Position numbers and translations under genes: made by a program
Assembly (NCBI GenBank): GCA_030426085.1
Contig: JAUHYW010000014.1
Location: 1-64,000, forward strand
Source of the DNA: a bacterium
GTDB lineage: Bacteria > Myxococcota_A > Bradymonadia > UBA7976 > UBA1532
Direction: 5' to 3'
Length of the DNA: 64,000 nucleotides
Notes under the pieces: model-generated
Told to the model about the DNA's origin: nothing
What the model saw: only the letters and a program-made list of their open reading frames with translations
Database searches by the model: none
Shown here: positions 995 to 41,882 of the stretch, one piece after another
How the letters are laid out: every line of letters starts with the position of its first letter
Position numbering within the stretch: the stretch's first letter is position 1

Positions 995-1376
995 TGCTGG
1001 CTCCTGGCGCCACTGTATCAGGATTCGAGCCGGCGCGGCGCCGAACGCGATGGCGTCGAGGCACGCGGCTCGTACAGCGGCTGGATATTGAAGATGGCCA
1101 GGGATCGCGCAGACCGATTCGTCGGGAATCGAGCCGGCGACCCGACGGGGCGTTGGTTCGGGTGGAGCCGAGGCGTGAGCGGAGCCCAGGCGCGAGACGC
1201 GGACGCTGCTGGGAGCAACGTCAAGGCGAGACCACGCTGCAATCGACGCATCGGGCCAAGAGCACGGTCAGATTCAGTGTCTGGCTGCTGCAACGGTGTC
1301 TGGCTGCTGTAACTCGACCTGTGCCGGGTTCATCGTCTCCCGGCGCCATCGATGGTAGACAGGCTGGGGAGCGAGC
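995..1376. other. Divergent intergenic region with a 14-bp direct repeat
   Basis: This 382-bp region separates the minus-strand gene at 482-994 from the plus-strand photolyase gene, so it should carry both promoters. I could not pick out a convincing -35/-10 pair. GTGTCTGGCTGCTG occurs at 1277-1290 and 1296-1309 (period 19 bp), about 70-100 bp upstream of the photolyase start, where a regulator could bind. Short open frames here look like chance. Confidence 0.55.
1277..1309. repeat. 14-bp direct repeat upstream of photolyase
   Basis: Two copies of GTGTCTGGCTGCTG with a 5-bp spacer (period 19 bp, near two helical turns); both copies continue with C/T-AAC. The location in a divergent promoter region makes a regulatory role possible, but no known operator was recognised. 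Confidence 0.5.
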
Positions 1377-3074: not shown

Positions 3075-3175
3075 GTCCGGTCGCCTGTGGGGCGGTCTTT
3101 TTCCCTGGATCCCGTGCCGCTTCAGGGGGTATACGGCGCCCGCCTCGACACTGGTCCGAGGGGAGGAGCCGACTC

Positions 3176-20795: not shown

Positions 20796-23700
20796 ATGCT
20801 GCTCGTCTGCCCCGACTGCAGCCATCGTTATCGCATCCCCGCCGGGGATGACGGGCGCGTTCTGCGCTTCGCCTGCCGCAAGTGCGGCGCCGCCATCGAC
20901 AGCCGCCAGCACCGGTCCGAAGACGCGCTGCCCACGCTCGCCGAGGGCTCGGGCTGGCTCGTGATCCACGGGGGCCGGGCGAGCGGCCCGTTCGATACGC
21001 GGGCGCTGGTCGGCATGGCCCGCGCCCGCCGGTTCGGCGCCCGGTCGCTGGTCTGGTCCGATGGCGCCGAGGCGTGGAACGTGGCCGGCAACACCCCGCC
21101 GCTGGGGCCGGCCCGCGCGGTGGCCTGGTGGGTCAAGATCGACGACGCCGAGGTGGATCCCATCGTGGCCGGGCTGGGGCAGGTCCTCGCCGCGCGCCCC
21201 GGTCACGGGCCGTCGGTGGACGCGCTGGAGAAGCTGATTCGGGTCGGCCGGGGCGGCGCGGCGGCGCGGGCGCACTTCGAGCGGGCGCTGCTGGACGGCG
21301 GCGAGCGGCGGCGGCTGGTGGACGTGCTGGAAGATCGGCTGGCGCTGACCGACGCCCGCGCCGATCGGGTGGCGCTGCGGGCGCGCATCGGCGGGCTGTA
21401 CGAGGCGCTGGGCGAGCCGGCGGCGGCGGCGGCGGCCTACGCCGAGGCGCTGCGCGACACGCCTCACGAGCTGGCTTTGATCGAAGGGCTCCTGCGCACG
21501 AGCGAGGGCGACGCGACACACCTGATCCGGCGGCTCGAGGGGGCGATCGACGGCCTCGACCCCGAAGAGGCGGCCCGCGTCCGGCTGCGTATCGCCCGGA
21601 TCCACGCCGACGGGGATCGGCCCGAGGCGGCGCTGACCGCCCTGGACACCGTCGACACCCACATCAGCGGCCCCGAGGCCCGCGCCCTGCGGGTCGAGCT
21701 GTACCGCCGCCTGGCGCGCTGGCCGGCCCTGGCCGCGCTGTACGCCGAGATCGCGTCCGAGACCACGGGGGGCGAGCGACGCGACGCCCTGCGATCGCTG
21801 GCCGAGCTGTTGGGCGGCACGCTCGGCGATCCGGCGGCGGCTGCGGCGACCTGGGCCACCCTGGCCGACGAGTGGCCCGAGGACGACGACGCCGTCGAGC
21901 GCCTCGCCGCGCTGGTCGGCGCCCACCCCGAGCTGGACGAGCCGGCGGCGATCCTGGACCGTACGCTGGAGACCCGGGGCGACTGGGCCGGGGTGTACGC
22001 CCTGCGCGCGGGGCGCATCGATCACGCGCCGCCGGGCTCGGCGCGGGCGGGGGCGATGGCCGCGCTGGCCGCGCTGTGCGTCGAGCGGCTGGGGGACGCG
22101 CCGGCGGCGTACACCTGGGCTGCGCGGGCGGTCGCCGAGCGGCCATACGCCGAGGACTACCGCCGCCTGCACGCCGAGCTGGCCCGGGCCGCCGAGCGGC
22201 TGTCGGCGTGGGTCGACGCGGCGGTGGCGGCGTTCGAGGCCGATCCGGCGCTGGTCGATGTGTACGTCGAGGCGGCGGCCTCGATGCCCCTCTCGGATGT
22301 GGATCGCGAGCGCCTGCACCGGGCGGTGCTGCGGCTCGCCCCGGGCCATGACGAGGCGTTCGCGGTGCTGCGGGCGATGGCCGATGGCCCCCAGCGGCTG
22401 CACGCCCTGATCGACGCTCGGCTGGCCGTCGCCCCGGACGAGCGGCGGGCGCTGCTGGCCGAGCGGGCGGCGATCGAGGCCGGGCCGCTGGCCGATCCCG
22501 AGCGGGCGTGGGCGACGTGGGGCGTGCTGCTCGACAGCGGGCCCGATCGGGCGGCGCTCGAAGCCCGGCTGGCGCTGGCCGAGCGGTTGGAGGATCCGGC
22601 GCGGCGGCTGGGCGCGCTCGACGCGCTGCGGGCGGTCGAGGCGGACGCCGCGCGGCGGCTGACGCTGGATCGGGCCGCGGCCCGGCTGGCGGGCGAGCTG
22701 GGTGATGCGGCCGACGCCATCGCCCGGTGGGAGGCGATCTTCGAGTCGGGGGCGGGCGATCCGGCCGAGTCCGTCGACGCGCTGGTCGAGCTGTGCGCCG
22801 CGGCGGGCGACGACGCGGGCTGCATCCGGGCGCTGGAGCGCCGCCGGGCGCTCGTGGGCGCGCTGGCGTCGGCCGATCTGCGCCGGCTGGCCGCGCTGTA
22901 TCACCGGGCGGGGCAGCGCGAGCCGGCCCGGGCGGCCTTTCGGGTCCTGGTCGACCGCGATCCGACCGACGACGACGCGCTGGACGGGCTCGAGGCGGCC
23001 TCCGACGACCCCCGGGATCATTTCGAAGTGGCGGTCCTGCGGCTGGCGCGGGCCGACGACAAGGGGACCGCGCTGGCCGCGCTCGTCCCGCTGGCCGACG
23101 CCGTCGCCGAGGATCGGGCGGGGCTGATCTTCGCCGCGGCGTCGGTGGTGCACACCGGGGACGACGCCGGCGCCGGGCGTCAGATCGAGCTGCGCATGCA
23201 GCCCGATGCGCGGCCGCTGCTCATCGACGCCTGGGGGCAGGCCGCCGCGGCTCACGGGCACGCCGCGCTGTATCGCCGACGCGCTGGCTGGTGCGAGGCG
23301 GCGGGGCGCGCGACCGACGCCCGGGCCGACTGGCGGATGGCCTGCGCCGCCGACCCCGAGGATCCGTCGAGCTGGCGGGCGCGCATGCGGCTGGCCGAGG
23401 GCGTGGGCGACATCGACGAGGTGTTGCTGTGCCTCGACGCGCTGATCGATCTCGACGACGCCCGCCCGCTCTATCGGCGGCGGGGCGCGCTGCTGGCCGA
23501 GCAGGGTCGGACGGCCGACGCCATCGAGGCCTGGCGCGCGGCTCGCTGCCCCGACGATCCGAAGGCCGACGCGCCGGCGCTCGACGCGCTCATCGATCTC
23601 TACGACCCGACGGATGACCGCGAGGCGCTGGCGGCGGCCCTCGACGAGCGGGCGCGCATCGCCGAGGCGTCGGGGGAGGCCGTGGCCGGCGATCTCGCCG

Positions 23701-26700: not shown

Positions 26701-29700
26701 GGCGGGCGGTGCTCGACGCGGCGCCGGGCGACGCCGAGGCGCTGGACGCGCTCGACGATCTATACGGCGCGGTCGGCGACGCCCACGGCCTCCTGGCGGT
26801 GCTCGACGCGCGCCGCGCCGGCCGCCCGGCGCCCGGGTTGCTCGTGCGCAGCGGCGACATCCGGCGGGCGGAGCTGGGCGACGACCGGGGCGCGCTGGCC
26901 GATTACGACGCCGCGCTGGCCGCCGACCCGCTGCACGGCGAGGCGTTCGACCGGGCCTGCGCGCTGTGCGCCGCGCTGGGCGACACGGCGGGGGAGCTGG
27001 ACCGCATCGAGGCCCGGCTCGAGCGGGTCGAGGCCGCGACCGCGCGGGGCGCGCTGCGCGAGCGGGCGGGGGCGTTGGCCGAGCGCTCGGAGCGGCCCCC
27101 GGCGGCCCTCCGCCACTGGTCGGCCGCGGCCCGGCTCACCGGGGACGACGCCCGCATCGGCCCGACGGTGGAGCGGCTGGCGGCCGAGACCGGCGACTGG
27201 GCCACCCCCGCGGCGGCGTGGCGCGCGGCGCTCATCGGGCGCTCGGCGGCCGACGCGCTGCCCCTCCGCCGGCGCCTGCTGGCCTGGGCCCGTGGCCCGC
27301 TGGCCGACGAGGCCGAGGCCCGGGTGCACGCCGAGCACATCCTGGCCCTGGCGCCGACCGACCGCGACGCGCTCGAGGCTTCGGCCGAGGCGGCGGCCAA
27401 CCCCGCCGAGCGCATCGCCGCGCTGAGCCGGCTGCACGCCATCGCCGAGGCCCCCGCCGAGAGGGCCGCGCTGGCCCGCGAGCTGGGCCGGCTGCACGCC
27501 GCCGATGCCCCCGGCCGGGGCGCGCGCTGGTTCGAAGCCGCGCTGGACGCCGACCCCACCGATCGCGCCGCGCTGGAGGGCCTGGCCGAGCTGCACCGGG
27601 CCCGCGACGCCCGGGCGCCGCTGCTGGCGGTCCGATTGCGGCAGGCCGAGCTCGACGGCGACGCTCGCTGGCTCGTCGAGGCGGCCCGGCTCGCCGAGCA
27701 GCTCGGGCGGCTGGACGAGGCGACGACGCTGTGGCAGCGGGTGGTCGGCGCGGCCGACCCCGACGGCAGCGTGGAGGCGCTCGACGGCGAGCTGTCGGTC
27801 GACCACGCGCTGCGGGCCTTGACCCGCCTGCTCGACGGTCAGGCCCGCTGGGCCGAGCTGGACGACGTCCTCGCGCTGAGGATCGAGCAGGCCGACGCCG
27901 AGACCCGGCGGACTCTGTGGCGCCGACGGGCCGCGCTGGCCGCCGAGCGCCTGGATGATCCCGAAGCGGCGCTGGCCGCGTGGCGGGCGATCCTGGCCGA
28001 CGACCCCGACGACGAAGAGGCGCTGTGGGCCGCGCTGGCGTCGAGCGAGGGCCCCGATCGGACCGCGCTGCGGCGGCGGCTGGTCGCGCGGCTGCCGGCG
28101 GGGGACGAGCGGCGGATCGAGCTGCTGCGGGCGCTGGCTCGCGAGGCCGGGCCCCGCAGCCGCGCTCGGGCGTGGGCCGCGGTGCTGGAGGACGCCCCCG
28201 GCGACGCCGAGGCCCTGGACGCGCTGGAGGCCGCCTGCGAGGCCGCCGAGGACTGGCCGGCGCTGGTGCGGGTCCTGCTCGAGCGGGTGGGCGACCCCCC
28301 GAGCGACGCCGGGCGCCTGTTGCGGGTGGCCCGCCTGCGCGACGAGCGGCTGGGCGACCCCCGGGCGGCGGCCGAGGCCTACGCCGCGCTGCTCGGGCTG
28401 ACCCCCGACGACGAGGACGCCTTCGCCCGCCTCGTCGAGCTGTACATCGCCGCCGGTGATCCCGCCGCCGCGCTGGCCCGCATCGAATCCCGCCTCGACC
28501 GGACCCGCGATCCCGCCGCGCGCCTCGCGCTGCACCGGCGGGCGGCCGAGCTGGCCGACGCCCGCCTGGGCCGCCCGGCCGAGGCCCTGGCCCACATCTG
28601 CCGGGCCTTCGCCGAGTCCCGGGACGACGCCCGCTTCGGCCCCGAGGCGGCCCGGCTGGCGCGCCAGCTCGACGACTGGACGGCCCCGGTCGCCGCCTGG
28701 AGCGGCGCGATCGACGGCGTCCCGGCGGCGGCCGCCCTGGCCCTGCACCTGCGCCTCGGCGGGTGGGCCGCCGGCCCGATGGGCGACCCCCGCCTCGCCC
28801 GGCGCCACTACCGCGCCGCGCTGGCGCTCGAGCCCGGACATCACGAGGCCCTGCGGGCGCTGGCCGCGCTGGCCGAGGACGACCCCGCCGATCGGGCCGA
28901 GGCGCTCGAGGGGCTGTTGGCCGCGGAGGCCGACCCCGAGGCTCGCCGGGCGCTGGCGGTGCGGCTGGGCGACCTCTACGCCGGCCCGCTGGCCGATCCC
29001 GATCGGGCGGTGGCCCGCTACCGCGCCGCGCTGGACGGGGTGGACGACGCCGAGGCCCTGGCCGGGCTGGCCCGGGTGCACGCCAGCCGGGGCGCCTGGG
29101 CCCCGCTGCTCGCCGTGCGGGCCCGCCAGATCACCCGGCTGGACGGCCCGGCCCGGGCGGCGACGCGGGTCGAGATGGCCCGACTGGCCGAGCGGCTGGG
29201 GCGGGTCGACGCCGCGATCGAGGCGTGGCGGACCGCGATCGAGGAGGGGGCCGATCCCCACGCGGCGCTGCCGGCCCTCGACGCCTGGCTGACCGCGCAC
29301 CGCCGCTGGGCTCCGCTGGCCGATGTGATCATCCGCCGGATCGCGCTCGCCGCCGGCGACCGCTCCACCGAGCGCGCGCTGCGGGCCCGGCTGGCCGCGC
29401 TGCGGGCCGACCGCCTCGACGACCCCGAGGGCGCCCGCGCCGAGTGGGCGGCCCTGCACCGCCTCGACCCCCGCGATCGGGAGGCCCTGCGCGCCTTGCG
29501 GGCCCTGGCCGACGGGCCCGAGGCCCGGGTCGAGGCCAACCGGCGCTTGCTCGACGCGCTGCCCGGCGGCGACCCCGACCGGGGCCCGCTGCGCCGGGAG
29601 ATCGCCCGGATCTGCACCCGGCCGCCGCCCGCGGGCCTCGACCGCCCGGCGGAGGCCATCGCGGCGTGGCAGCTCATCCTCGACGAGACCCCGGGCGACG

Positions 29701-32700
29701 CCGAGGCGCTCGACGCCCTGGAAGCCCTGCACGCCCGGGCCCACGATCCGGCGGCGCTCATCGAGGTCCTGCGCCTGCGCCACGCCGCCGCGCCGTCGAC
29801 CGCCCTGCGCCTGCGCATCGGCGGCCTGCACGAGTCCGCCGGCGCGCCCGCCGAGGCCCTGGCCGAGTACCGGGCCGTGCTCGACGCCGCGCCGGGCCAC
29901 GCCGAGGCGTTCGCCCGCGCCCGGCGCCTGCTCATCGCCGCGGGCGACGGCCCCGGCTTGCGGGCGCTGGTCGAGGGGCGGCTGGCCCGCGTCGCCGAGC
30001 CGGCCGCCCGCCGGGCGCTCGCCGAAGAGGCGGCCCGGCTGGCCGAAGAACAGGGCGATCTGCCCCGGGCCGTGCACTGGCTGGGCGAGGCGTTCGCCAC
30101 CTGCCGGGACGACGCGGCCTACGGGGACGGCATGGCGCGGCTGGCCGACCTCGCCGAAGCCCGAACGGCCGCCGTCGCCCGCTGGCGGGCCGCCGCCGAG
30201 GCGCTCGCCGGCACCCCCGAGGCCATCCCGCTGCACCTGCGCCTGCACGCCTGGCTGGCCCCCGTCGACCCCGCCGCGGCCGCCGCCGAGCTGGCCGAAG
30301 CGGCCCGCCTCGCGCCCGACGATCCCCGCGTGCTGCGAATCCGGGCCCGGGCGGCCGAGGGCGATCACGATCACCCGACCCTCCTGCGGGCGCTGCTCGC
30401 GCTGCGCCGACAGGCCGCCGACTCGACCCGGGTCGATCTCACCCGGCGCATCGCCCGCCTGCTCGCCGGCCCGCTGGACAACCCCGAGGCCGCGCTGGCC
30501 GAGTACACCCGGCTGCTCGACGCCCGCCCCGACGACGGCGAGGCGCTGGCCCGGCGGGCCGATCTGCTGCGCCGGCTCGACCGCCCCGAGGCGTTGTTCG
30601 CGGTGCTCGGCGAGCTGCTCGACCGCGACCCCGACCCCGACCGGCGGCGGGCCCTGCTCGAAGAGCGGGCGGCCCTCGCCGAGCGCCAGGGCTGGACCGA
30701 CGCCGCGATCGACGGCTGGCGGGCGGTGCTGGCGTCGAGCGAGCGGAGCGACGCCGCGTGGGCCGCGCTGGAGACGCTGTACGCCGCCGACGGGCGCCTG
30801 GACGACCTCGAAGCGCTCTTCGTGCGGCGGGCCGCGGCCGAGCCCGACCCGACCGCCGCGACGCTGCGGGTGCGCGCGGCCCGGGTCGCCGAGTCCCGCG
30901 CCGACGCCGCCGCCGCCCGGGCCCACTACGAGGCCGCGCTGACCCACGACCCCGACTGCGCCCCCGCGCTGCGGGCCCTGGCCGCGCTGCACGCCCGCGC
31001 CGGGGACACCGCGGCCCGGGCCCGCCTCGAAGCCCGCCTCGCCGCCGGCCTGCCCGACGACACCCCCGAGGCCGTCGACCGCTGGCGGGCCATCGGGCGC
31101 ATGTGCCAGGGCGCGGGCGACGCCGCGCAGGCGATCGAGGCGTGGTCCCACGTCCGGCGGGCGGTGCCCGACGACGAAGAGGCGCTGGCCGCGCTGGGCG
31201 AGCTGTACGCGCTGGTCGGCGACGACGGCGCCCTGGCCGACGCGCTGGCCGATCGGGCGGGCGCGCTGACCGACGGCGGCGCCCGGGCGGCGCTCCTGGC
31301 CCGGGTCGGCGGGCTGCGGGCGGGCATCGGCGACACGCCGGGCGCCATCGCCGCGTGGCGGGCCGTCTTCCGCCTCGACCCCGCCGCCGACGAGCCCTTC
31401 GACGCCTTGGAGACGCTGCTCGCCGGGGACTGGCCGGCGCTGGCCGGGCTCCTGCTCGAGCGGGCCGCCGCGCTGCCCGCCGGCCCTCGCCGGGTGGCCT
31501 TGCGCCTGCGGGCCGCCGAGCTGCTCGCCGAGCGGGCCGCGCGCCCGGGGGACGCCCTCGCCGCCCGGCTCGCCGTCTTCGCCGACCAGCCGGACGACGC
31601 GGCCCACGGCGCGGTCATCGACGCCCTGGCCGACGCGGCCGACGGCCACGCCCGCGCCGCGGCGGCCTACACCATGGCCCTCGATCGGGGCCTGCCCGTC
31701 GAGCGCGCGGTGCCCCTGCGCATGCGGCTGGCCCGCTGGCAGTCGGGCCCGCTCGGCGCCCCCGAGGACGCCATCGCCCAATACTGCGCGGTGCTCGACC
31801 GGGTGCCCGATCACGCCGAGGCGCTGGCCCGGATGGAGGCGCTGCGGGCCGAGATCGGCGACTGGAGCGCGCTGGCCTCGCTGCTCCAGCAGCGGGTGGC
31901 CCGGGCGGCCGACGACGAGAGCCGGCTGAGCGCGCTGCGGCGGTTGGGGCGGGTCCAGGCCCGGCAGGCCGGCGCGGCCCAGGCGGCCATCGCGACGTGG
32001 CGCCGCATCCGCCGGGCGCGCCCCGACGACGACGAGGCGGCCGACGCGCTGCTGCGGCTGTATCGCGAGACCGAGCGCTGGCCCGCGCTGGTGCGCGCCC
32101 TCGAAGAGCTGCCCCCCACGCCGGCCCGCCTGCGGGAGATCGCCGGCCTGTGCCGGGGCGCGCTCGACGACGCCCCGCGGGCGATCGACGCCCTGGAGCG
32201 GGCCCGGGCCATCGACCCCGACGACCCCGAGACCGGCGCCGCGCTGCTCGACGCCTACCGCGGCGCCGGGCGCTGGGCCGACATGCGGGCGCTGTACGCC
32301 GACCTCGTGCGCCGCCGCCCGCCGGCCGAGCGCCCCGCGCTGTACCGCGATCTGGCCGCGCTGCTCGAAGAGCACCTGGCCGACGCCGACGCCGCCGCCG
32401 ACGCCTGGCGGGCCGTCGTCCGCCTCGTGCCGACCGACGCCGAGGCCGTCACCGCGCTGGATCGCATCGAGCGCGCCGCCGGTCGCCATGGCCCGCTGGC
32501 CGACGTCTGGGCCCGCCACGTCGCCGCGCTGCCCGCCGAGCAGTCGGTGCCCGCCCGCCTGACCCTGGCCGGGCTGTACCGCGCCGCCGGCGACCCCTAC
32601 CGGGCCATCGACGCCCTGCGCCCCGCGCTGGACCTGCCCCGGGGCCGGGCCGACGTGCTGCGGGCGCTGGCCGATCTGTATGCCGGGACCGGCGACTGGC

Positions 32701-35700
32701 GCTACTGCGCCGAGGTGCTCGACCGCGAGATCCGGCTCGCCCCGCCCGCCGAGCGCGTCGCCCGGCTGCGAGAGGCCGTCGAGGTCCGCGAGCGCCACCT
32801 GCGTGACCCGCTGGGCGCCTTCGAGCGCGTCGCCGAGGCGTGGCGGCTCGAGCCCGCCGACGAGTCGCTGGCCGTCGACGCCGCCCGCCTGAGCAACCGG
32901 GTGGGGCGGCCCCGAGCGCTGCTCGACCTCTATCGCGAGATCCAGGGTCGGGTGTCCGCGGTGCCCGCCCGGGGCCGCGTCCTGCGGGCCGCCGCCCGCC
33001 TCGCCCGGCAGCTCGGCGACGCCGGCACCGAGGCCGATGCGTGGCGCGCGCTGCACGACGCCGTCGACCCCGACGACCGCGAGGCCCTCGACGGGCTGAT
33101 CCGCCTGCTGAGCGCCGACGGAGCCTGGAGCGCCCTGCGCCCGATGCTCGAGGCCCGGATGGCGCTGGATCCCGCGGCCGGCACCGCGCTGGCCCTGGCG
33201 GTGCTCACCGCCGAGCACCTGGCCCGCCCGGGCGAGGCCGCCGGCTGGTACCGCCGGGCGCTGGCCCTCGACCCCGGCGACCGCCGGGCGCTGGCCGGGC
33301 TGGTCGACATCGAGCGCAGCCGCGAGGCGTGGCCCGCGCTGTATCACGCGCTCGACCGCCTCGCCGAGCGCCTCGACGGCCCCGAAGAGGCCGCCGTGCG
33401 GGCCGAGCAGGCGACCCTGGCCGCCGAGCGCCTGGGCCGCCCGGCCGACGCCCGCCGCCTGTGGGAGACCGTACTGCGGCTGCGGGGCGCCGACGACGCC
33501 GAGGCGCTGGCCGCGCTCGACCGGCTGCTCTCGGGTGGGGATGACGACCGGGCCCTGATCGACGTCCTCGAGCGCCGCCTCGCCGCTGGGGAGTCGCCCG
33601 CGCCGCTGCATGTCCGGCTGGCCGAGGTGCACGCCGGGCAGGGGCGGGCGCCGGCCGCGCTCGACCACTGGCGCCGAGCGCTGGACGCCGAGCCCGACTG
33701 CGTGCCCGCGCTGTGGGCGGTGCATCAGGGGTCGGACGATCCGGCCGAGGTCATCGCGACCCGCCGCCGGCTGCTGGCCCGGCTGGGCCCCGACGACCCC
33801 CGCCGGCTGAGCCTGCTGCGGGCCCACGCCCGGCACACCGCCGATTCGGGCGACGCCGCCGCCGCGATCGCCGCGTGGCGGGCGGTCCGGGCCGAAGCCG
33901 CGCTGGACGCCGAAGCGGTCGCCGCGCTGGCTGCGCTGTACGCGCAGATCGACGAGCGGGCCGCGCTGGCCGACCTGCTCGCCGAGACCGGCGCCGACCG
34001 CCTGCGCGCGGCGCAGCTCTACGTCGAGCTGGGCCGCCCCCGCGTCGCCCGGCGGCTGTTCGAGCGCATCCTCGCGGCCGACCCGGCCCACGCCGAAGCC
34101 AGCGCGGCCCTGGCCGACATCCACCGCGCCGCCCTGCGCTGGCCGGCGCTGGCCGACGTGCTGCGGGCCCGCATCGAGGCCACCGGCGACGCCACGACCC
34201 GGGCCGCTGTGCGGCGCGAGCTCGCCGAGATCCAGCACCGCCGGCTGCGCGATCCGGGCGCCGCGCTGGAGACCTCGATCGCGGCCTTCGACGAGCGCCC
34301 CGATCCGGCCGCGATCCCCGCGCTGAACGCCCTCGCCGCCGAGACCGGCGCCTGGCCGGCCCTGGCCGACTGCGCCGAGCGGGCCCTGGACGCCGGCGAG
34401 GCCGATCCCGCGCCGCTGCACCGCTGGTTGACCGCGCTCTACGCCGAGCACCTCGAGATGCCCCAGGCGGCCGCCGCCCACGCCCGCCGCGCGTGGCGCC
34501 TGACCGGGGACGACGCCGCGCGGGCCCGCCTCGAAGCGCTGCTGACCGCCGCCGAGGACTGGGACGGGCTGGCCGAGGTGTGGGCGGCCCACGCCGATCG
34601 GCTGCCGGCCGACGCCCAGCGTGAGGCCCTGGTGGCCCTGGCCCGGCTGCACGCCGAGCGGCGGGGCGATCCGGCGGCGGCGACGGCGGTGTGGCAGGAC
34701 GTGTTGGCCGCCGACCCCCGCGACGCGGACGCCCTCGACGCCCTGGCCGCGCTGCACCGGGAGAGCGACCGCCTCGACGAGCTGTGCGCGGTGCTGGAGC
34801 GCCGGTTCGAGCAGGCCGAGGACGTCGACGCCCGGATCGAGCTGGCCGGGCAGATCGCCGAGCTGGCCGCCCACCTGGGTGATCCCATGCGGGCGGTGCC
34901 GCCGCTGCGGGCGGTCGTCGACGCGACCGGGCGCCCGGCGCTCTCCGACCGGCTCGCGGCGCTGCTCCGGTCCGCCGGCCGGTCGTCCGAGGCGCTGGCC
35001 GTGCGCCTGGAGGCGGTCTCGCGGCTGCCCGACGCCGAGGCGCGGGGCCGGGCCCTCGTGGCGCTGGCCGATGATCTGCGCGCGCCGGGTCGGCCCCCTC
35101 GGTGGCGGGGCCTGCGCATGGCCTGGCCCGACGACGCCCCGGGGTGGCAGGCGGTGGATGCTCTGCTCGAAGCCGTCGGCCGGTGGGATGACCGCGCCGC
35201 GCTGGCGACGATCGACGCCGAGGTGCACGGGGGCCGTGATCGCTGGGTGACCGTCGCCCGGCTGCATCAGGACCGCCGACGGGATGCCGTCGAGGCGCTG
35301 GCCGCGTGGCAGGTGGCGCTGATCACCGCCCCCGGCGACGCTGCCATCCTGGATGCCATCGAAGCCATCCACCGGGCCGACGGGCGCGCCGATCGCTTCG
35401 CCGATGTGCTGCGGGCCCAGATCGACCGGGTGCCCCCGCCCCGGGGCGCCGAGCTGGCGCTGCGGCTGGCCGATCTCGAGGCGCGCCATGGCGCGCCCGC
35501 GGCGGTGGCCGACGCCGTCGAGCGGGCGCTCGATCTGCGGGCGGACGCCATCGACGCGGCGGCGGACGCCATGCCATCCGACGACGCCGATGCCATCCGC
35601 GTCATCGAGCATGCCATCGACGGGCTCGACCGCCTCGGGTTCGCCCGCGCCGCCGCCGACGATCGGGCCCGCTGTGTCACCGCGGGGCAGCGGGCGCTGG

Positions 35701-38700
35701 CGCTGGCCGAGGCCGCCGGTCGCCCGCTGGACGAGCGCATCGACCGCCGGGTCATGCTGGCCGCGCTGGGCGACACCTGGGACGCGCTCTACGCCGAGGC
35801 CGTCGGCGGCCCGCTCCTCGATCCGCTGCTCGACGCCCTGGTCGATCGCCGCCCGAACCGCTGGCGCGCGTTCGCCCGGCGCGCCGCCGAGCAGATCGAC
35901 ACCGCCGCCGCCTGGGCCCGCCTCGCCCGCGGCCTGGAAGACGTCGCGCCCGCGCGCGCCCCGTCCGCGTGGAAGCGGGCTCTGGACCACGACCCGGCCC
36001 ACGGCGAGGCCCTGGTGCACCTCGCCGCCTCCGACCGCGCCATGGGTGATGTCGACGCGGCGGTCCGGCGCCAGATCGTCGCCGCCGGGATCGATCGGGG
36101 CCAGCTCGACGGGCTGCTGGCGCTGGCCGACGATCCGGCCCCGAGCCCCGCGGCCCGCCACGCCGCGCTGGAAGCCGCCCACGGCATCGACCCGGCCCGC
36201 ACGCCGCTCGATTCGCTGGCCGAGGCCCGCCTGGCGGTGGGCGACGCGGCCGGCTGGCGGGTGGCGCTGGACGAGGCCCGGCGGGTCGACGCCGACCCCG
36301 AGGGCTGGGCCGCCCGCACCGTGACCCTGGCCGACGCCGGCGCCGACTGGGCCGCGCTGATCGACGACGACGCCGGCCGGCTCGACGCCCTCGACGGGGC
36401 GCTGGCCGCCGACGACCGCTGGACCGACGTCGCCGAGCTGCGCGGTCTGCGCGCCGAGCGGGCGCCGAGCGTCGAGCATCACCGCGCGCTGGCCCGGGTG
36501 ACCGCGCGCCTGGGGCGCACCGCGGATGCGTTCGAGGCGTGGCGCGCCGTGCTCGACGACGCCCCGGCCGATGTCGAAGCCCTGGGAGGCGTCGCCGCCC
36601 TCGAGCCCGAGCTGCCCCCGTCGTCGACTGCGGCGGTCTACGTCGAGCAGCTCCCGCACGTCGACGACCCCGCCGAGGCGGTGACGCGGGCGCTGCGCCT
36701 CGCCGATCTCGTCGAGCGCCTGCCCGATCCCCGGCCGGCCCTCGACGCCCTCGACGCCGCGTTGGCGCGCCACGACGACCCCCGGCTGGTCGAGCGGGTG
36801 GCCCGGGCGAAGGCCGCCACCGGTGACGACGCCGGCGCCGCCGCGCTGTGGGCCCGGGCGCTGGACGCGGTCGACGAGGCCGCCGAGCGGGCCGCCCGCC
36901 TGGGTGAGCTGGCCGATCTGCGCAGCCGGGCAGGGGACCTGGACGGGGCCTTCGACGCCGCGGCCGAGGCGGCTCTGCTGCGGCCCGACAGCGACCTCGA
37001 AGACGCCCGGCTGACCCGCCTCGCCGACGCCACCGATCGCCTCGCCGACCGCGCCCGCACGCTGGGCGAGGTGCACGACCGGGCCACCGACCCCGAGCGC
37101 CGACGGGCCCTGCGCGAGACGCTGGCGGCGCTCTTCGGCGGCCCCCTCGCGGGCACCGACGACGCCGAGCGCTGGTGGCGGGCCCGGCTCGCCGCCGACC
37201 CCGACGACGCCCCGGCCCTCGCCGCGCTCATCGAGCGGCTGCAAGGCGCCGAGCGGTGGGCCGATCTGGCCGACCTCTACGCCGAGCGGGCCGCCGCGCG
37301 CCCGAGCGAGGCCGCCGCGCTGCATACCGCCCGGGCCCGCATCTTCGCCGATCGCCTCGGCGATCCCGTCGCCGAGCGCGAGGCGTGGCGCGCCGTGCAC
37401 GAGGTCGACCCTCGCGACGAGGCGGCGCTGCGGGCGCTGTGGCGGCTGGACGACGACCCCCAGCGCCGCGACGGGCTGGCCCGGGCGCTGCTGGACCGGC
37501 TGCCCGCCGGCGATCCGCTGCATCCGGCGCTGCACCGGTGGCTGGCCCCCCGCAGCGCGCGCCCCGCCTCGCACTGGCGGGCGGTCCTGAGCGCCGATCC
37601 CGAGGCCGACGACGCCGCCGACGCGCTCGAAGACCTGCGCCGGGCGGCGGGCGACCACGACGCCGTGCGGGCGCTGCTCGACCGCAAGCTGGCCCGCGCC
37701 GCCGATCCCGACACCGCGGCCGAGGTCTGGCGGGCCATCGCCGAGACCGAGCGCGCCCGAGGCGACGGCCCGGCCGCCCGGGCCGCGTGGCGCGAGGTGC
37801 TGGCCCGCCGGCCGGGCGATCTCCGGGCCGAGGCGGCGCTGGCCGAGGCCCACCTCGCGGCGGACGACGTCGAGGCGTGGGCCGCGCTCCGGCTGCGCCA
37901 GCTCGACGGCGTCGACGACCCGGCGGCCCGCGCCGAGCTGTACCGCGAGGTGGCCCGCACCCTCGAGGCGCGCCTGCCCGACGCCGGCCCGGCCTTCGAC
38001 GTCGTCGCCCGGGCCTTCGCCGAGCGGCCCCACGACGGCGCGCTGTCCGCCGAGCTGATCCGCCTCGCCGAGCGCAGCGGCCGCCGGGGCGCCCTGGCCG
38101 ACATCTGGCGGTCGGCGCTGGATCGGGTCGAGGGCCGGCCGGCGGCCACCCTGGCCCTGCGCCTGGCCGAGCTGGAGCAGCGCCGGGGCCGAATGGACGC
38201 CGCCGCCGAGGCGTGGCGCCGGGCGCTGGCCGCCGATCCCAAGGCGTTGCCCGCGCTGGAGGGCTTGGAGCACTACGCCCTCGACCGGGGCGACGATGCG
38301 CTGCTGGCCGACATCCTCGCCGCCCGCCTGCGCACGCCGTCGGGCGAGGCCGAGGCGCTGGATCGCTGGCGCCGGCTGGCCCGCCTGCACGGCGAGGCCG
38401 GCCGGGTCGCCGAGGCCGAGGCCGGGTGGCACGCGGTGCTCCAGCGGCGGCCGGACGACGCCGAGGCGCTGGAGGCCCTGGCTGACGTCTACGCCGCCGA
38501 CGCGCAGTGGCGGGCGCTGACCGAGGTGCTGCTGCGCCAGCTCGTGGCGGCTGAGGGCCCGCGCGCGGTCGCGCTGCGCCGTCGGCTGGCGCTGGTCTGC
38601 CTCGAAGAGCTGGACGACCGGGCGGCGGCCCGGGCGGCGCTCGATCCCATCGCCGACGAGACCGACGACCCCGAGCTGCTGGCCCTGCTGGTCGATCTGA

Positions 38701-41700
38701 CCCGGGCCGAAGCGGACTGGCCGGCCTGCGCGGCCCTGCTCGACCGCCTCGCCCGCCGCACCCGCGGCGCGCAGGCCCGCGACGCGTGGGTCGCCCGGGC
38801 CGACATCCAGCGGGATCACCTGCACGATCCGGCGGGCGCCCGGGCCAGCCTGGGGGCCGCCGCCGAGATCGAGCCCCGCCACCGCCCGGCGCTCGAGGGC
38901 CTGTGGCGGCTGGCCGAAGACGCCGACGACGCGCCCGCCGCGGCCCGGGCCCTGGCCCGGCTGGAGCCGCTGGGCGACCCCGACTCACGCGCCCGCTGGC
39001 TGACCCGCCTGGGCGAGCTGCACGCCGACGCCCTGGGCGATCCGGCGGCGGCGGTCGAGGCGTGGCATCGGGCCCTCACCGCCGATCCGGCCCATGGCCC
39101 CGCGCTGCGCCGGCTGGCCGAGCACGCCCTGGCCGAGCGCCGCTGGCCCGAGGCGGCGATCCTGCTCGACCGCCTGCTGGCCGCCGAGCCCGACGCCGAG
39201 CCGAGCCGCCTGCGCGAGCGCCACCTGGCCGCGGCTCGCTGCGCCGAGGCGCTGGACGACGACGAGGCGACCCGCCGGCACTTCGAGGCCGCGCTGGACC
39301 TCGACGCGACCCACCGCCCGGCGCTGCTGGCGCTGGCCGATCTGGCCTTCCGCCAGGGCGACTGGGCCCGCGCGTTCCAGGTGGGGCAGGCGCTGCTGGT
39401 GCATCACGGGGCCGACCTCGAGCCGGCCGAGCGGGCCGACCGGCTGCACCGGCTGGGCGCGCTCAAGGCCCTGCTCGGCGAGCCGGAGCGGGCCCGGGCG
39501 TTCTACCGGCAGGCGCTGGAGGCGTGGTCGGGGCACGGGCCGTCCCGGCGGGCGCTGTCCGAGGCCCCCGGCGCGCCGACCCCGGCCCCGGTCGACGGCG
39601 ACCCGTCGTGGATCGGCGAGGCCGAGCTGCTCGACGCCGAGGACGCGGCGCTCGAGGCGTATCTCTACGGGGACGGCCCGGCGCCCGCGCTGGACGCCGC
39701 CGAAGAGGTCGACGACTTCGAAGAGGTCGCGGATGACGCGATCGAAGGGGATCCCGCGCCCGAGCAGCCCGCGGCGCCGCCCCCGCTGCCCGCCATCCGC
39801 CGGACCGCGGCCTACGCCTCGCCGATGGCGCCGCCGGCCGATGTCGAGGGCGCCGTCGAGCGGGCGGTCGAGGGCACCGTCGGGCGGGCCATCGATCGCA
39901 TCGTCGAGCGCATCGGCGAGCGGCCGGTCGAGGTCAAGCCGACCGAGGATCTGGCCGCCGTGACCCGGGCCGCCGAGAGCGCCGCCGCCGAGGCCGCCGC
40001 CGCCGCCCGCGCCGCCGAGGCCGCCGCCGAAGCGGCCCACGCCGGCGCCGCCGCGATGACCGCGCTGCCCCTGGCGACCGCCGCCGCGCTCGAAGCCCCC
40101 GGCGAGCCCCGCGAGCGGGCCCCGGTGCGCCCGATCAAGGCCAGCAAGGTCCGCGTGCTGCGCCGCACCTCGCCCCGCCGACGCTACCTCTACGCCGCCA
40201 GCGCCGCCGCGGTCCTCATCGCCGGGCTGTCGGCCGGCCTGTTCGCCGTCCAGAGCTACCGCCTCGAAGAGACCGTCGAAGACAACGCCCGCCTGACCCG
40301 GGTCTCGGAGTCGCTCGCCCGCCGGGTCAGCGCGACCCAGCTCGCGTTCGAGCGGGTGACCCGCGAGCTGCGCGGCGATCCGCTCGAGGGCGACATGCCC
40401 ACCGAGCGGGCCATCGCGCTGTTCGACGAGGACGGCCAGCCGCTCGACGAGGTGATGCTCGAGCTGGCGTTCCGCGACCTCGAGATGCGCGAAGAGCTGG
40501 GCGCGGTGAAGGGCATCCTGGCCGCGGCCGACGCCGGGCGGGCCGACGCCACCGAGCGCAGCAAGGCGCTGGAGCTCCAGGTGGCGACGCTCCAGAGCCA
40601 CATCGACGGCCTCAAGGCGCAGCAGACCGAGGTGCACGAGCGGCTCGCCGGGCGCCTCGACCAGAACATCCAGGCCATCGAGACCGCGCTGACGGCGACC
40701 GGCATCGACTTCGACGCGCTGGCCGACCCCGAGCTGGGCAAGACCCCCATCGTGGTCGCCGGGCTCGACGATCAGCCGCTGACCGGCGCCGGCGGCCCGT
40801 TCATCGCCGACGGCACCAGCGAGTACGTCAACCCGGTGCCCGGCGAGACCGAGGTGATGAGCGGCTTCGGGCCCCGGGGGCACAGCCACCACAACGGCAT
40901 CGACATCCCGGCGCCCATCGGCACCGCCGTGCTCGCGGTCAGCGCGGGCGAGGTCATCCACGTCCAGGATCGGGTGGCCTGGCAGGGCCGGCCGAAGTGG
41001 ATCGAGAAGAACGACCGCAAGATCAAGAGCCAGGGCTGGCGGGCGGGCATCTACGTCGAGCTCGAGCAGGACGATGGCCGCATCAGCCGCTACATGCACC
41101 TCGCCGCGGTGGCCCCCGGCATCGAGGTCGGCGCCCGGGTGCTCAAGGGGCAGGTGCTGGGCAGCGTCGGCCGGACCGGGGTCGAGAAGAGCGACACCCA
41201 CCTGCACTTCGAACTGCGCGAGCCGCCCAGCGACGGCGGGCGCTACGGCGCGGCGCTCGACCCGACGGCGGCGGTGCACAAGGACGACGTCGACGTGATC
41301 ATGGGCAGCTCGCTGCTGCACGCCGATCCGTCGATCATCGACGTGAGCCCCGAGGCCGAGCGGGCGCTGAAGTCGCGTCAGGACGCCGCCGGGGCCGACG
41401 AGGAGGCCATCGTCGAGCGGCTCGACGGCCGCATGGATCGCCTCCAGAGCCTCGAGAAGCTGCTGCGCGAGATGCCGCTGGTGCCGCCGGTGGACGACTT
41501 CAAGGTCTCCAGCCGCTTCGGCCGGCGCCTCGACCCGCTCAACGGGGAGTGGGGCTTCCACGGCGGCCTCGACATCCCGGGCCACGAGGGCAGCCCCATC
41601 CGGGCCACCGCGCCGGGCACGGTCGTCTTCTCGGGCGACCGCGGCCGCTACGGCATCATGGTCGAGATCGACCACGGCAACGGCGTGACCACCCGCTACG

Positions 41701-41882
41701 GCCACCTGCTGCGCAGCCTCGTGCGCAAGGGCCAGCGGGTCCGCTACCGGGCCCGCATCGGCGAGATGGGCAGCTCGGGCCGCACGACCGGCACCCACCT
41801 GCACTACGAGGTCCGGGTCGACGGCAACCCCCGCGATCCGATGAACTTCATCCAGGCCGGGCGCTACGTCTTCAAGCGGTAG
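20796..41882 (+). CDS. Giant trans-envelope zinc ribbon-GYF-TPR-TM-double LytM (M23) protein
   Basis: Encodes 7,028 residues in one uninterrupted frame. Order: an MJ0042-type zinc ribbon with Cys5, Cys8, Cys27, Cys30; a GYF_2-like domain (53-96: W54, GPF at 64-66, VW at 86-87, W94); a TPR solenoid (about 115-6250); an acidic and Ala-rich linker; a basic patch (RRTSPRRR), then one transmembrane helix (6464-6485); a coiled coil (about 6490-6650); and two M23 peptidase domains. The first has His6699-x3-Asp6703 and His6802-Leu-His6804; the second has His6922-x3-Asp6926 and His7001-Leu-His7003, so both keep the zinc ligands. The positive-inside rule puts the TPR part in the cytoplasm and the peptidases in the periplasm. 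ATG 20796 is preferred because it begins the zinc ribbon directly; TTG 20790 adds two residues, and no clear ribosome-binding site is seen. Coupling an internal signal to peptidoglycan cleavage is inference. Confidence 0.93.
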   Translation: MLLVCPDCSHRYRIPAGDDGRVLRFACRKCGAAIDSRQHRSEDALPTLAEGSGWLVIHGGRASGPFDTRALVGMARARRFGARSLVWSDGAEAWNVAGNTPPLGPARAVAWWVKIDDAEVDPIVAGLGQVLAARPGHGPSVDALEKLIRVGRGGAAARAHFERALLDGGERRRLVDVLEDRLALTDARADRVALRARIGGLYEALGEPAAAAAAYAEALRDTPHELALIEGLLRTSEGDATHLIRRLEGAIDGLDPEEAARVRLRIARIHADGDRPEAALTALDTVDTHISGPEARALRVELYRRLARWPALAALYAEIASETTGGERRDALRSLAELLGGTLGDPAAAAATWATLADEWPEDDDAVERLAALVGAHPELDEPAAILDRTLETRGDWAGVYALRAGRIDHAPPGSARAGAMAALAALCVERLGDAPAAYTWAARAVAERPYAEDYRRLHAELARAAERLSAWVDAAVAAFEADPALVDVYVEAAASMPLSDVDRERLHRAVLRLAPGHDEAFAVLRAMADGPQRLHALIDARLAVAPDERRALLAERAAIEAGPLADPERAWATWGVLLDSGPDRAALEARLALAERLEDPARRLGALDALRAVEADAARRLTLDRAAARLAGELGDAADAIARWEAIFESGAGDPAESVDALVELCAAAGDDAGCIRALERRRALVGALASADLRRLAALYHRAGQREPARAAFRVLVDRDPTDDDALDGLEAASDDPRDHFEVAVLRLARADDKGTALAALVPLADAVAEDRAGLIFAAASVVHTGDDAGAGRQIELRMQPDARPLLIDAWGQAAAAHGHAALYRRRAGWCEAAGRATDARADWRMACAADPEDPSSWRARMRLAEGVGDIDEVLLCLDALIDLDDARPLYRRRGALLAEQGRTADAIEAWRAARCPDDPKADAPALDALIDLYDPTDDREALAAALDERARIAEASGEAVAGDLAARQARLAEADNRIEAAIAAWERALDLGFAPTTALAALEPLYAIEGRIDDQARTLGRHIAQVEGAERRALRARRARLLTLAGDAEGALSEWDATLAEAPGDLDALWAAYELRVERGDWPEAVESARRLLATLPADDPRSDALCRARARALVDPLDRPAEAVDAWSAVLARAAGDSEALDALEALYARLDDPAGLVSTLERRRARGERPDGALLRRIGALRVDRLGDADGALAAFDGALALDPGDGAAFERAVAILDARADAAGALDRIERHVAHAPEPIALHARAAALAEQLERPEAALAHVAAAMRAGGRDADFGDVAERLAGRGAGWETPAAAWEAALADVRGTPASLPLHRRLMAWARDPLADAPRALRHAAGVLALEPADVEALTVRADCGAEPATVAEALGRLYSISEDGRGRRARRLGALHAGPLDDPARAAHWFERALEADPTDSEALAGLGEVYRGDENWPALRIVRLRQADRVRSDLEAGRGSLEVHAALLAEAARLSARLGAPGQALDDWAEVLGVDPRHAEALSEARALHRAAGDWAAAVELGERLLEQVEDGDLRRDQARILDERLDRAEPAIAAWRALLAAAPDDPEALAALDRRFTLAGAPGELAGILTARLRLDPEDADLWVRLGVARRAVGDIERARAAFDEALSRAPTHQDAFEAGLALAAGPAEVLDRIEAHLAHTDPGARHALGLHARAIDAALAAAPARAVPHLAAALAATRDDARFGPPAERVAAATGERAPVIEAWRAAAVEADRREALPLHRRILRWSTERPDDAAPHAEALLVADPDDVEALTALGRASDPRIRADALARLHPLTDEADQRAERAAAVADIHAHALDDPRAAVGWYESALADRPDDPALLDRLADAHRAAGDRFALCRTHRRQAAAARGAARIAFRAEAARLATALGDPHAARDWAAVLADAPDHREALEAALDLARQRGDAAAMIDLGDRLLALVAPDEPARPELLRAQARLLAASESRSERAIDLWRAVLDAAPGDAEALDALDDLYGAVGDAHGLLAVLDARRAGRPAPGLLVRSGDIRRAELGDDRGALADYDAALAADPLHGEAFDRACALCAALGDTAGELDRIEARLERVEAATARGALRERAGALAERSERPPAALRHWSAAARLTGDDARIGPTVERLAAETGDWATPAAAWRAALIGRSAADALPLRRRLLAWARGPLADEAEARVHAEHILALAPTDRDALEASAEAAANPAERIAALSRLHAIAEAPAERAALARELGRLHAADAPGRGARWFEAALDADPTDRAALEGLAELHRARDARAPLLAVRLRQAELDGDARWLVEAARLAEQLGRLDEATTLWQRVVGAADPDGSVEALDGELSVDHALRALTRLLDGQARWAELDDVLALRIEQADAETRRTLWRRRAALAAERLDDPEAALAAWRAILADDPDDEEALWAALASSEGPDRTALRRRLVARLPAGDERRIELLRALAREAGPRSRARAWAAVLEDAPGDAEALDALEAACEAAEDWPALVRVLLERVGDPPSDAGRLLRVARLRDERLGDPRAAAEAYAALLGLTPDDEDAFARLVELYIAAGDPAAALARIESRLDRTRDPAARLALHRRAAELADARLGRPAEALAHICRAFAESRDDARFGPEAARLARQLDDWTAPVAAWSGAIDGVPAAAALALHLRLGGWAAGPMGDPRLARRHYRAALALEPGHHEALRALAALAEDDPADRAEALEGLLAAEADPEARRALAVRLGDLYAGPLADPDRAVARYRAALDGVDDAEALAGLARVHASRGAWAPLLAVRARQITRLDGPARAATRVEMARLAERLGRVDAAIEAWRTAIEEGADPHAALPALDAWLTAHRRWAPLADVIIRRIALAAGDRSTERALRARLAALRADRLDDPEGARAEWAALHRLDPRDREALRALRALADGPEARVEANRRLLDALPGGDPDRGPLRREIARICTRPPPAGLDRPAEAIAAWQLILDETPGDAEALDALEALHARAHDPAALIEVLRLRHAAAPSTALRLRIGGLHESAGAPAEALAEYRAVLDAAPGHAEAFARARRLLIAAGDGPGLRALVEGRLARVAEPAARRALAEEAARLAEEQGDLPRAVHWLGEAFATCRDDAAYGDGMARLADLAEARTAAVARWRAAAEALAGTPEAIPLHLRLHAWLAPVDPAAAAAELAEAARLAPDDPRVLRIRARAAEGDHDHPTLLRALLALRRQAADSTRVDLTRRIARLLAGPLDNPEAALAEYTRLLDARPDDGEALARRADLLRRLDRPEALFAVLGELLDRDPDPDRRRALLEERAALAERQGWTDAAIDGWRAVLASSERSDAAWAALETLYAADGRLDDLEALFVRRAAAEPDPTAATLRVRAARVAESRADAAAARAHYEAALTHDPDCAPALRALAALHARAGDTAARARLEARLAAGLPDDTPEAVDRWRAIGRMCQGAGDAAQAIEAWSHVRRAVPDDEEALAALGELYALVGDDGALADALADRAGALTDGGARAALLARVGGLRAGIGDTPGAIAAWRAVFRLDPAADEPFDALETLLAGDWPALAGLLLERAAALPAGPRRVALRLRAAELLAERAARPGDALAARLAVFADQPDDAAHGAVIDALADAADGHARAAAAYTMALDRGLPVERAVPLRMRLARWQSGPLGAPEDAIAQYCAVLDRVPDHAEALARMEALRAEIGDWSALASLLQQRVARAADDESRLSALRRLGRVQARQAGAAQAAIATWRRIRRARPDDDEAADALLRLYRETERWPALVRALEELPPTPARLREIAGLCRGALDDAPRAIDALERARAIDPDDPETGAALLDAYRGAGRWADMRALYADLVRRRPPAERPALYRDLAALLEEHLADADAAADAWRAVVRLVPTDAEAVTALDRIERAAGRHGPLADVWARHVAALPAEQSVPARLTLAGLYRAAGDPYRAIDALRPALDLPRGRADVLRALADLYAGTGDWRYCAEVLDREIRLAPPAERVARLREAVEVRERHLRDPLGAFERVAEAWRLEPADESLAVDAARLSNRVGRPRALLDLYREIQGRVSAVPARGRVLRAAARLARQLGDAGTEADAWRALHDAVDPDDREALDGLIRLLSADGAWSALRPMLEARMALDPAAGTALALAVLTAEHLARPGEAAGWYRRALALDPGDRRALAGLVDIERSREAWPALYHALDRLAERLDGPEEAAVRAEQATLAAERLGRPADARRLWETVLRLRGADDAEALAALDRLLSGGDDDRALIDVLERRLAAGESPAPLHVRLAEVHAGQGRAPAALDHWRRALDAEPDCVPALWAVHQGSDDPAEVIATRRRLLARLGPDDPRRLSLLRAHARHTADSGDAAAAIAAWRAVRAEAALDAEAVAALAALYAQIDERAALADLLAETGADRLRAAQLYVELGRPRVARRLFERILAADPAHAEASAALADIHRAALRWPALADVLRARIEATGDATTRAAVRRELAEIQHRRLRDPGAALETSIAAFDERPDPAAIPALNALAAETGAWPALADCAERALDAGEADPAPLHRWLTALYAEHLEMPQAAAAHARRAWRLTGDDAARARLEALLTAAEDWDGLAEVWAAHADRLPADAQREALVALARLHAERRGDPAAATAVWQDVLAADPRDADALDALAALHRESDRLDELCAVLERRFEQAEDVDARIELAGQIAELAAHLGDPMRAVPPLRAVVDATGRPALSDRLAALLRSAGRSSEALAVRLEAVSRLPDAEARGRALVALADDLRAPGRPPRWRGLRMAWPDDAPGWQAVDALLEAVGRWDDRAALATIDAEVHGGRDRWVTVARLHQDRRRDAVEALAAWQVALITAPGDAAILDAIEAIHRADGRADRFADVLRAQIDRVPPPRGAELALRLADLEARHGAPAAVADAVERALDLRADAIDAAADAMPSDDADAIRVIEHAIDGLDRLGFARAAADDRARCVTAGQRALALAEAAGRPLDERIDRRVMLAALGDTWDALYAEAVGGPLLDPLLDALVDRRPNRWRAFARRAAEQIDTAAAWARLARGLEDVAPARAPSAWKRALDHDPAHGEALVHLAASDRAMGDVDAAVRRQIVAAGIDRGQLDGLLALADDPAPSPAARHAALEAAHGIDPARTPLDSLAEARLAVGDAAGWRVALDEARRVDADPEGWAARTVTLADAGADWAALIDDDAGRLDALDGALAADDRWTDVAELRGLRAERAPSVEHHRALARVTARLGRTADAFEAWRAVLDDAPADVEALGGVAALEPELPPSSTAAVYVEQLPHVDDPAEAVTRALRLADLVERLPDPRPALDALDAALARHDDPRLVERVARAKAATGDDAGAAALWARALDAVDEAAERAARLGELADLRSRAGDLDGAFDAAAEAALLRPDSDLEDARLTRLADATDRLADRARTLGEVHDRATDPERRRALRETLAALFGGPLAGTDDAERWWRARLAADPDDAPALAALIERLQGAERWADLADLYAERAAARPSEAAALHTARARIFADRLGDPVAEREAWRAVHEVDPRDEAALRALWRLDDDPQRRDGLARALLDRLPAGDPLHPALHRWLAPRSARPASHWRAVLSADPEADDAADALEDLRRAAGDHDAVRALLDRKLARAADPDTAAEVWRAIAETERARGDGPAARAAWREVLARRPGDLRAEAALAEAHLAADDVEAWAALRLRQLDGVDDPAARAELYREVARTLEARLPDAGPAFDVVARAFAERPHDGALSAELIRLAERSGRRGALADIWRSALDRVEGRPAATLALRLAELEQRRGRMDAAAEAWRRALAADPKALPALEGLEHYALDRGDDALLADILAARLRTPSGEAEALDRWRRLARLHGEAGRVAEAEAGWHAVLQRRPDDAEALEALADVYAADAQWRALTEVLLRQLVAAEGPRAVALRRRLALVCLEELDDRAAARAALDPIADETDDPELLALLVDLTRAEADWPACAALLDRLARRTRGAQARDAWVARADIQRDHLHDPAGARASLGAAAEIEPRHRPALEGLWRLAEDADDAPAAARALARLEPLGDPDSRARWLTRLGELHADALGDPAAAVEAWHRALTADPAHGPALRRLAEHALAERRWPEAAILLDRLLAAEPDAEPSRLRERHLAAARCAEALDDDEATRRHFEAALDLDATHRPALLALADLAFRQGDWARAFQVGQALLVHHGADLEPAERADRLHRLGALKALLGEPERARAFYRQALEAWSGHGPSRRALSEAPGAPTPAPVDGDPSWIGEAELLDAEDAALEAYLYGDGPAPALDAAEEVDDFEEVADDAIEGDPAPEQPAAPPPLPAIRRTAAYASPMAPPADVEGAVERAVEGTVGRAIDRIVERIGERPVEVKPTEDLAAVTRAAESAAAEAAAAARAAEAAAEAAHAGAAAMTALPLATAAALEAPGEPRERAPVRPIKASKVRVLRRTSPRRRYLYAASAAAVLIAGLSAGLFAVQSYRLEETVEDNARLTRVSESLARRVSATQLAFERVTRELRGDPLEGDMPTERAIALFDEDGQPLDEVMLELAFRDLEMREELGAVKGILAAADAGRADATERSKALELQVATLQSHIDGLKAQQTEVHERLAGRLDQNIQAIETALTATGIDFDALADPELGKTPIVVAGLDDQPLTGAGGPFIADGTSEYVNPVPGETEVMSGFGPRGHSHHNGIDIPAPIGTAVLAVSAGEVIHVQDRVAWQGRPKWIEKNDRKIKSQGWRAGIYVELEQDDGRISRYMHLAAVAPGIEVGARVLKGQVLGSVGRTGVEKSDTHLHFELREPPSDGGRYGAALDPTAAVHKDDVDVIMGSSLLHADPSIIDVSPEAERALKSRQDAAGADEEAIVERLDGRMDRLQSLEKLLREMPLVPPVDDFKVSSRFGRRLDPLNGEWGFHGGLDIPGHEGSPIRATAPGTVVFSGDRGRYGIMVEIDHGNGVTTRYGHLLRSLVRKGQRVRYRARIGEMGSSGRTTGTHLHYEVRVDGNPRDPMNFIQAGRYVFKR
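21140..39540 (+). repeat. TPR solenoid, about 6,100 residues
   Basis: Helical repeats with the TPR pattern (W or L at position 4, G/A at 8, A at 20, P at 32) run almost without a break, for example A-x-x-x-W-x-x-x-L-x-x-x-P-x-D-x-E-A-L-x-A-L. At 34 residues per unit the space would hold well over 150 units; I did not count them one by one. Frequent signatures are DPEAL, RLA-x-LY and AI-x-AWRA. Confidence 0.88.
24702..31668 (+). repeat. Higher-order modules of about 420 and 495 residues in the TPR array
   Basis: An anchor motif, an aromatic codon (Trp, last copy Tyr) followed about 15-18 residues later by (L/I/V)-P/A-L-(H/R)-x-R-(L/I), recurs at 24702, 25968, 27219, 28698, 30183 and 31668. 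Spacings are 422, 417, 493, 495 and 495 codons. The flanking text also matches between copies, for example the preceding ARFGP or DDA-x-(F/I)-GP segment. This points to growth by duplication of whole multi-TPR blocks. Confidence 0.75.

Follow-up and report, generated by a model that had tools for sequence, protein, structure and literature searches.

Type VI secretion systems (T6SS) need enzymes that open the cell wall locally, a task carried out by TagX in Acinetobacter (PMC5061870, PMC10564176) and by MltE in enteroaggregative E. coli; according to a 2023 review, T6SS clusters do not commonly encode such wall-opening enzymes themselves (PMC10433429). How a T6SS passes through the wall of its own producer is only partly understood. 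In Myxococcus, the head of GltJ binds MglA and AglZ. Here we describe a giant gene that lies in a 64,000-nucleotide stretch of DNA (the window) and that joins a GltJ-type head to M23 peptidase domains through a very long arm. In relatives, genes of the same type adjoin clpV (tssH).

Results

A single 21-kb frame encodes a 752-kDa protein

The gene probably starts at the ATG at position 20796, which is more plausible than a TTG present two codons upstream. Its features, with the evidence for each, are as follows.

20796..41882 (+): whole gene (7,028 sense codons, then a stop codon), with a 7,128-aa orthologue in the sister species G001
20796..20897 (+): zinc ribbon, residues 1–34, CxxC...CxxC (Pfam Zn_ribbon_4; PDB 7zok, AgmX/GltJ)
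20955..21098 (+): GYF_2 domain, residues 54–101 (Pfam; PDB 7z3c, AgmX/GltJ)
21384..39521 (+): TPR alpha-solenoid, residues ~197–6242 (Pfam TPRs, repeat profile, AlphaFold model and Foldseek)
39522..40184 (+): linker, residues 6243–6463, acidic, then Ala/Glu-rich, then basic (sequence)
40185..40250 (+): single transmembrane (TM) helix, residues 6464–6485 (hydropathy and charge)
40251..40694 (+): long helices, predicted to be periplasmic, probable coiled coil, residues 6486–6633 (AlphaFold model mc942713c7938, H12–77 and H104–185; low confidence there)
40791..41279 (+): M23 domain 1, which carries a distinctive insertion of ~28 residues (VQDR...GWRAG); motif residues H6699, D6703, H6768, H6802, H6804 (family-specific profile)
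41556..41840 (+): M23 domain 2; motif residues H6922, D6926, H6970, H7001, H7003

Local GC content is 73–80% and open frames thousands of codons long exist on the antisense strand here, so that an open frame by itself proves little. One such frame, of 4,040 codons (26760–38882, −), lies antisense to the giant gene; it is a by-product of the ~80% GC and a warning for annotation. Third-position GC is 0.92–0.98 along the entire giant frame, and the sister species G001 has a matching uninterrupted frame of 7,128 residues that is 70% identical from end to end, with few gaps and similar spacing, a pN/pS of 0.46 and mismatch rates of 0.18, 0.19 and 0.39 at codon positions 1, 2 and 3. Since G001 thus carries the same unbroken frame with coding-type divergence, a frameshift, a misassembly or a chance frame is refuted as the origin of the ORF. 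DNA indels between the two genes are not all multiples of three (50/78 in a quick alignment); as neither frame is interrupted anywhere, we ascribe this to noise in the alignment. An earlier reading made from the sequence alone (the sequence-only reading) had proposed one unbroken frame of 7,028 residues and ~750 kDa, naming a frameshift or misassembly among the findings that would refute it; the proposal withstood this comparison, with a calculated mass of 752 kDa. To our knowledge, the protein is among the largest bacterial envelope proteins.

A GltJ-type head, one membrane helix and two intact M23 domains

In Pfam searches the N-terminal GYF_2 domain of the window's copy was detected with an E-value of 3e-7 and the preceding Zn_ribbon_4 weakly (E 0.0036), the latter more strongly in orthologues. 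When a profile built only from the N-termini of the giant family was searched against solved structures, its two best matches were 7z3c (GYF) and 7zok (zinc ribbon), with E-values of 4e-7 and 1e-6, both being structures of Adventurous gliding motility protein X (AgmX, GltJ). The zinc ribbon and GYF domain named in the sequence-only reading are therefore present, but are not a new module, and the giant protein has the zinc ribbon–GYF head of GltJ (NF033761). Neither the full-length NCBIfam GltJ model nor the AgmX/PglI C-terminal domain matched its N-terminal 1,500 or C-terminal 960 residues. Separate GltJ-like proteins with zinc ribbon, GYF and AgmX/PglI C-terminal domain are encoded at L119:3094–4314 (G000:C72, in the window's own genome), where the last domain exceeds its cut-off, and at L125:6735–7892 (G001:C77), near recR, dnaX and mglB–mglA-like genes.

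At the other end of the protein, residues 6464–6485 form the strongest hydrophobic segment of the whole chain, flanked by seven K/R within the 15 residues on its N-terminal side and by two on its C-terminal side, and the predicted topology is N-in/C-out. The two M23 domains were matched in Pfam at 40887–41222 and 41556–41840 with 109 and 68 bits (cut-off 28.7), which places them in the M23 (LytM) family, and a helix sits between them. Both have intact HxxxD, (Y/M)xHL and HxH motifs, so the zinc ligands have not been lost as in EnvC-type degenerate domains, and the motif residues of domain 2 are invariant across six aligned homologues. Among solved M23 structures, the nearest relatives of domain 2 are ShyA and related endopeptidases. 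No VanY-type (pfam13539) domain was found in the C-terminal 960 residues, where M23 is the only peptidase domain detected. The proposed single membrane helix and the joining of a cytoplasmic input to a periplasmic LytM/M23 output in one chain are thus both supported by the domains, the helix and the predicted topology.

Relatives in one family keep both ends of the protein

A profile of M23 domain 1 was searched against 379 genomes of the phylum and gave strong matches in six, all from the window's family: G000 (the window's own), G001, G002, G007, G008 and G012. Five scored 292–310 bits and one, a partial at a contig start, 121 bits; the next best match was at 84 bits. A seventh genome, G006, has the TM helix, coiled coil and one M23 domain at a contig end (M23 203 bits, TM/coiled coil 75 bits). 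Because a plain protein search with the giant C-terminus missed G002, the absences reported below rest on profile searches. T6SS-free relatives (L162 to L167), a negative control, have ordinary M23 proteins only, whose scores against the part of the profile that covers M23 domain 2 do not exceed ~116 bits.

In G002 the whole protein, of 2,100 aa, is encoded in a single frame after clpV, with a CxxC/CxxC head, a long arm, the TM helix and two M23 domains. The halves lie on different contigs in G006, G007, G008 and G012, so that the full domain order there is inferred. In G006, the same decapeptide repeats are found where the clpV-adjacent N-terminal half and the TM–M23 C-terminal half each reach a contig end, which ties the T6SS-linked head to the TM–M23 end; no contig-end overlaps joining the halves were detected in G007, G008 or G012. 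Constant among the relatives are the head (zinc ribbon and/or GYF; GYF only in G008 and, judged by eye, the CxxC/CxxC ribbon only in G002), the TM–coiled-coil segment and M23.

The arm is a long TPR solenoid that unrelated repeats can replace

TPR families match throughout the giant arm in Pfam, and a self-trained TPR profile found 78 non-overlapping repeats in residues 197–6242, spaced mainly by 34–35 residues (0 in a shuffled control). For residues 4600–5300, where Pfam hits are weakest, AlphaFold predicted 42 consecutive helices (pLDDT 79) that match TPR structures in the PDB, such as OGT and designed CTPR, by Foldseek. Assuming textbook TPR geometry, we estimate a superhelix length of very roughly 0.15–0.2 micrometre for ~178 TPRs, which makes it doubtful that the arm spans a large part of the cell, as had been suggested.

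The arm before the TM helix measures 6,463 and 6,555 residues in the two species of the window's genus, g1 (G000 and G001), and is of TPR type in these as well as in G007, G008 and G012. In two genera it is built of low-complexity repeats: that of G002 has ~1,595 residues, unrelated to TPR, with 29 FGF motifs mostly 21 or 28 residues apart, and that of G006 ends in decapeptide repeats GAWNGEAQAE/D. A TPR solenoid is consequently not an essential, invariant feature of the protein. As the sequence of the arm differs from genus to genus, individual repeats are probably less important than its length and multivalency. The comparison also suggests that unrelated repeats can take the place of a cytoplasmic arm of 6,000 residues with no loss of either end.

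An arm so long, of conserved length in both g1 species and with repeats that suggest many docking sites, might also serve as a sheath-length or tether device: fixed at the inner membrane, it would bind the T6SS tail or the baseplate all along the arm and so determine where the tail lies or how far it extends, M23 being mainly a wall anchor. We consider this very unlikely, given that the arm of G002 comprises only ~1,595 residues of unrelated repeats and that the aligned sequences retain their catalytic motifs, which argues for M23 acting as an enzyme and not as a mere anchor.

In several relatives, a separate TPR protein of ~3,900–4,150 aa is encoded with a TPR lipoprotein/TPR gene on one side and an rsmI-like gene on the other (L118:1246–13002 of G001:C36; similarly in L117 and L122). 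Frames of about the size of this ~4,000-aa protein occur in most genomes of the class, and it is possibly related to GltI/AgmK.

Genes of the giant type adjoin clpV in four other genera

In five genomes from four other genera (G002, G006, G007, G008 and G012), the giant-type gene lies next to clpV, in the order tssA–tssB–tssC–hcp–tssE–tssF–(tssG)–clpV–giant-type gene. Its N-terminal part starts 72–160 bp downstream of clpV in G006, G008 and G012, where clpV itself follows tssC–hcp–tssE–tssF; the whole protein of G002 starts 174 bp after the clpV stop, downstream of tssF–tssG–clpV, and G007 has the same junction, directly adjoining, on a short contig. Pfam confirmed the neighbouring tss genes, and the adjoining ATPases in G006, G008 and G012 score above the NCBIfam cut-off for T6SS ClpV1. 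No other wall hydrolases were seen in these T6SS clusters. In G002, a second zinc-ribbon protein of 973 aa with apparent C-terminal membrane segments is encoded directly after the M23 protein (G002:C26 / L037:11401–14322).

In g1, the T6SS cluster is present (G000:C85, G001:C48), but the giant gene has been relocated, and so has clpV. The neighbours of the giant gene in the window are ordinary and offer no lead to T6SS. The window also encodes a protein of 3,159 aa in which beta-helix and PKD domains were detected (2849–12328, +), probably a large surface or secreted protein, and just beyond it (L021:8490–16476; G000:C40:64001–84000) PADLOC detected the BREX-type defence genes brxC and pglX (1,832 and 2,194 bits), with a HEC-02A-like gene nearby.

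Within the family, the giant-type protein is present in 7/7 genomes with the sheath gene tssC and in 0/6 without, a pattern whose naive probability is 6e-4 if independence is assumed, with no correction for phylogeny; all seven positive genomes belong to this one family, so the co-occurrence is not phylogenetically independent. The profile search found the protein in none of 61 other T6SS-bearing genomes of the phylum, which makes it a lineage-specific accessory at most.

These distributions bear on two further explanations. The protein could be a hydrolase with a housekeeping role in cell shape or division (MepM-, DipM- or EnvC-like) to which a giant cytoplasmic arm was added, its T6SS linkage being coincidental hitch-hiking. 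Domain 2 is indeed closest to MepM, ShyA and similar DD-endopeptidases, TM–coiled-coil–M23 proteins are common, for example in Alphaproteobacteria, and the window's genome has about nine other M23 genes. Such an enzyme would be expected in T6SS-free family members too, where it is absent, and we regard this explanation as improbable. The clpV linkage and the co-occurrence likewise make the cell-shape or division role that the sequence-only reading implied, by analogy with FtsEX–EnvC, less likely than a role in T6SS.

Alternatively, it could be a T6SS-independent Glt/focal-adhesion or polarity component, with a head that binds MglA (and an AglZ-like partner), a TPR arm acting as GltI and M23 domains loosening the wall for gliding or polar growth. 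This would fit the match of the head to the solved GltJ/AgmX domains, the GltJ-like protein found in both g1 species (near mglB–mglA-like genes in G001), the position of the giant gene outside the T6SS cluster in g1 and the 4,132-aa TPR protein GltI of M. xanthus, which is encoded beside gltJ (PMC3169522). We nonetheless think it unlikely: heads of the GltJ type are found in almost all relatives and in 42/43 T6SS-bearing genomes of the phylum, whereas the giant protein occurs only where the family has T6SS, and in four genera its gene sits next to clpV and not next to glt genes. Among the matches listed for other Myxococcota, compared by eye, no Zn-ribbon/GYF heads were located near tssC.

Discussion

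We propose, with a probability of roughly 0.6, that the giant protein is a T6SS-dedicated, inner-membrane-anchored peptidoglycan hydrolase (a wall endopeptidase) of this lineage. Its gene is linked to clpV in relatives and, within the family, occurs only together with T6SS, which suggests that its probable task is to open the producer's wall for T6SS. The GltJ-type head and long arm would dock onto T6SS assembly factors and recruit the protein to assembly sites, the head possibly also docking onto an MglA-type polarity switch, as the GltJ head does in Myxococcus. Docking would bring the M23 domains to the point at which the TssJLM membrane complex has to cross the wall, and local cutting of cross-links there would allow the complex to insert; the coiled coil may keep the enzymes off, in an EnvC-like manner, until the arm is engaged.

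By analogy with GltJ, control by an MglA-type switch is plausible. The protein also suggests that the regulatory head of Myxococcus gliding has been put to use in controlling a secretion system. A more speculative and rather doubtful extension is that a head responsive to a polarity GTPase, a length-tolerant arm and wall hydrolysis are combined in one chain so that T6SS assembly is confined to a chosen site or a site of contact, gliding parts being re-used to aim a weapon. On the proposed T6SS role, the protein would add a wall hydrolase from a different enzyme family to those linked to T6SS, one that is new, testable and unusual in size and build.

We searched the literature and, in line with the sequence-only reading, found no described protein with the same domain order, though several resemble parts of it. 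EnvC (with FtsEX), DipM, MepM and ShyA share the M23 fold, and EnvC also has a coiled coil and a membrane partner that drives it, but these LytM/M23 enzymes are a few hundred residues long and have no cytoplasmic arm; EnvC is, moreover, catalytically degenerate, whereas both M23 domains of the giant protein keep their H/D and HxH motifs. GltI/AgmK (4,132 aa, M. xanthus) is likewise a giant TPR protein of Myxococcota, but it has neither head nor M23, and no signal peptide or TM segment is listed for it (PMC3169522). The Myxococcus focal-adhesion protein GltJ/AgmX has the same N-terminal cytoplasmic zinc ribbon followed by GYF and then a membrane crossing, but has no TPR solenoid and no M23, and carries an AgmX/PglI C-terminal domain that is found here only in the separate GltJ-like gene. 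TagX is, like the proposed hydrolase, an inner-membrane-anchored peptidoglycan endopeptidase encoded in a T6SS cluster, with a periplasmic catalytic domain, and has been proposed to open the producer's wall (PMC5061870). It differs in being small (24.5 kDa as a tagged construct; PMC10564176), with two predicted TM segments and a VanY/pfam13539 fold, as against the M23 fold, 752 kDa, one TM helix and giant cytoplasmic arm with a GltJ-type head described here. The giant protein would thus work like TagX yet, by its catalytic domain, stand outside the TagX family.
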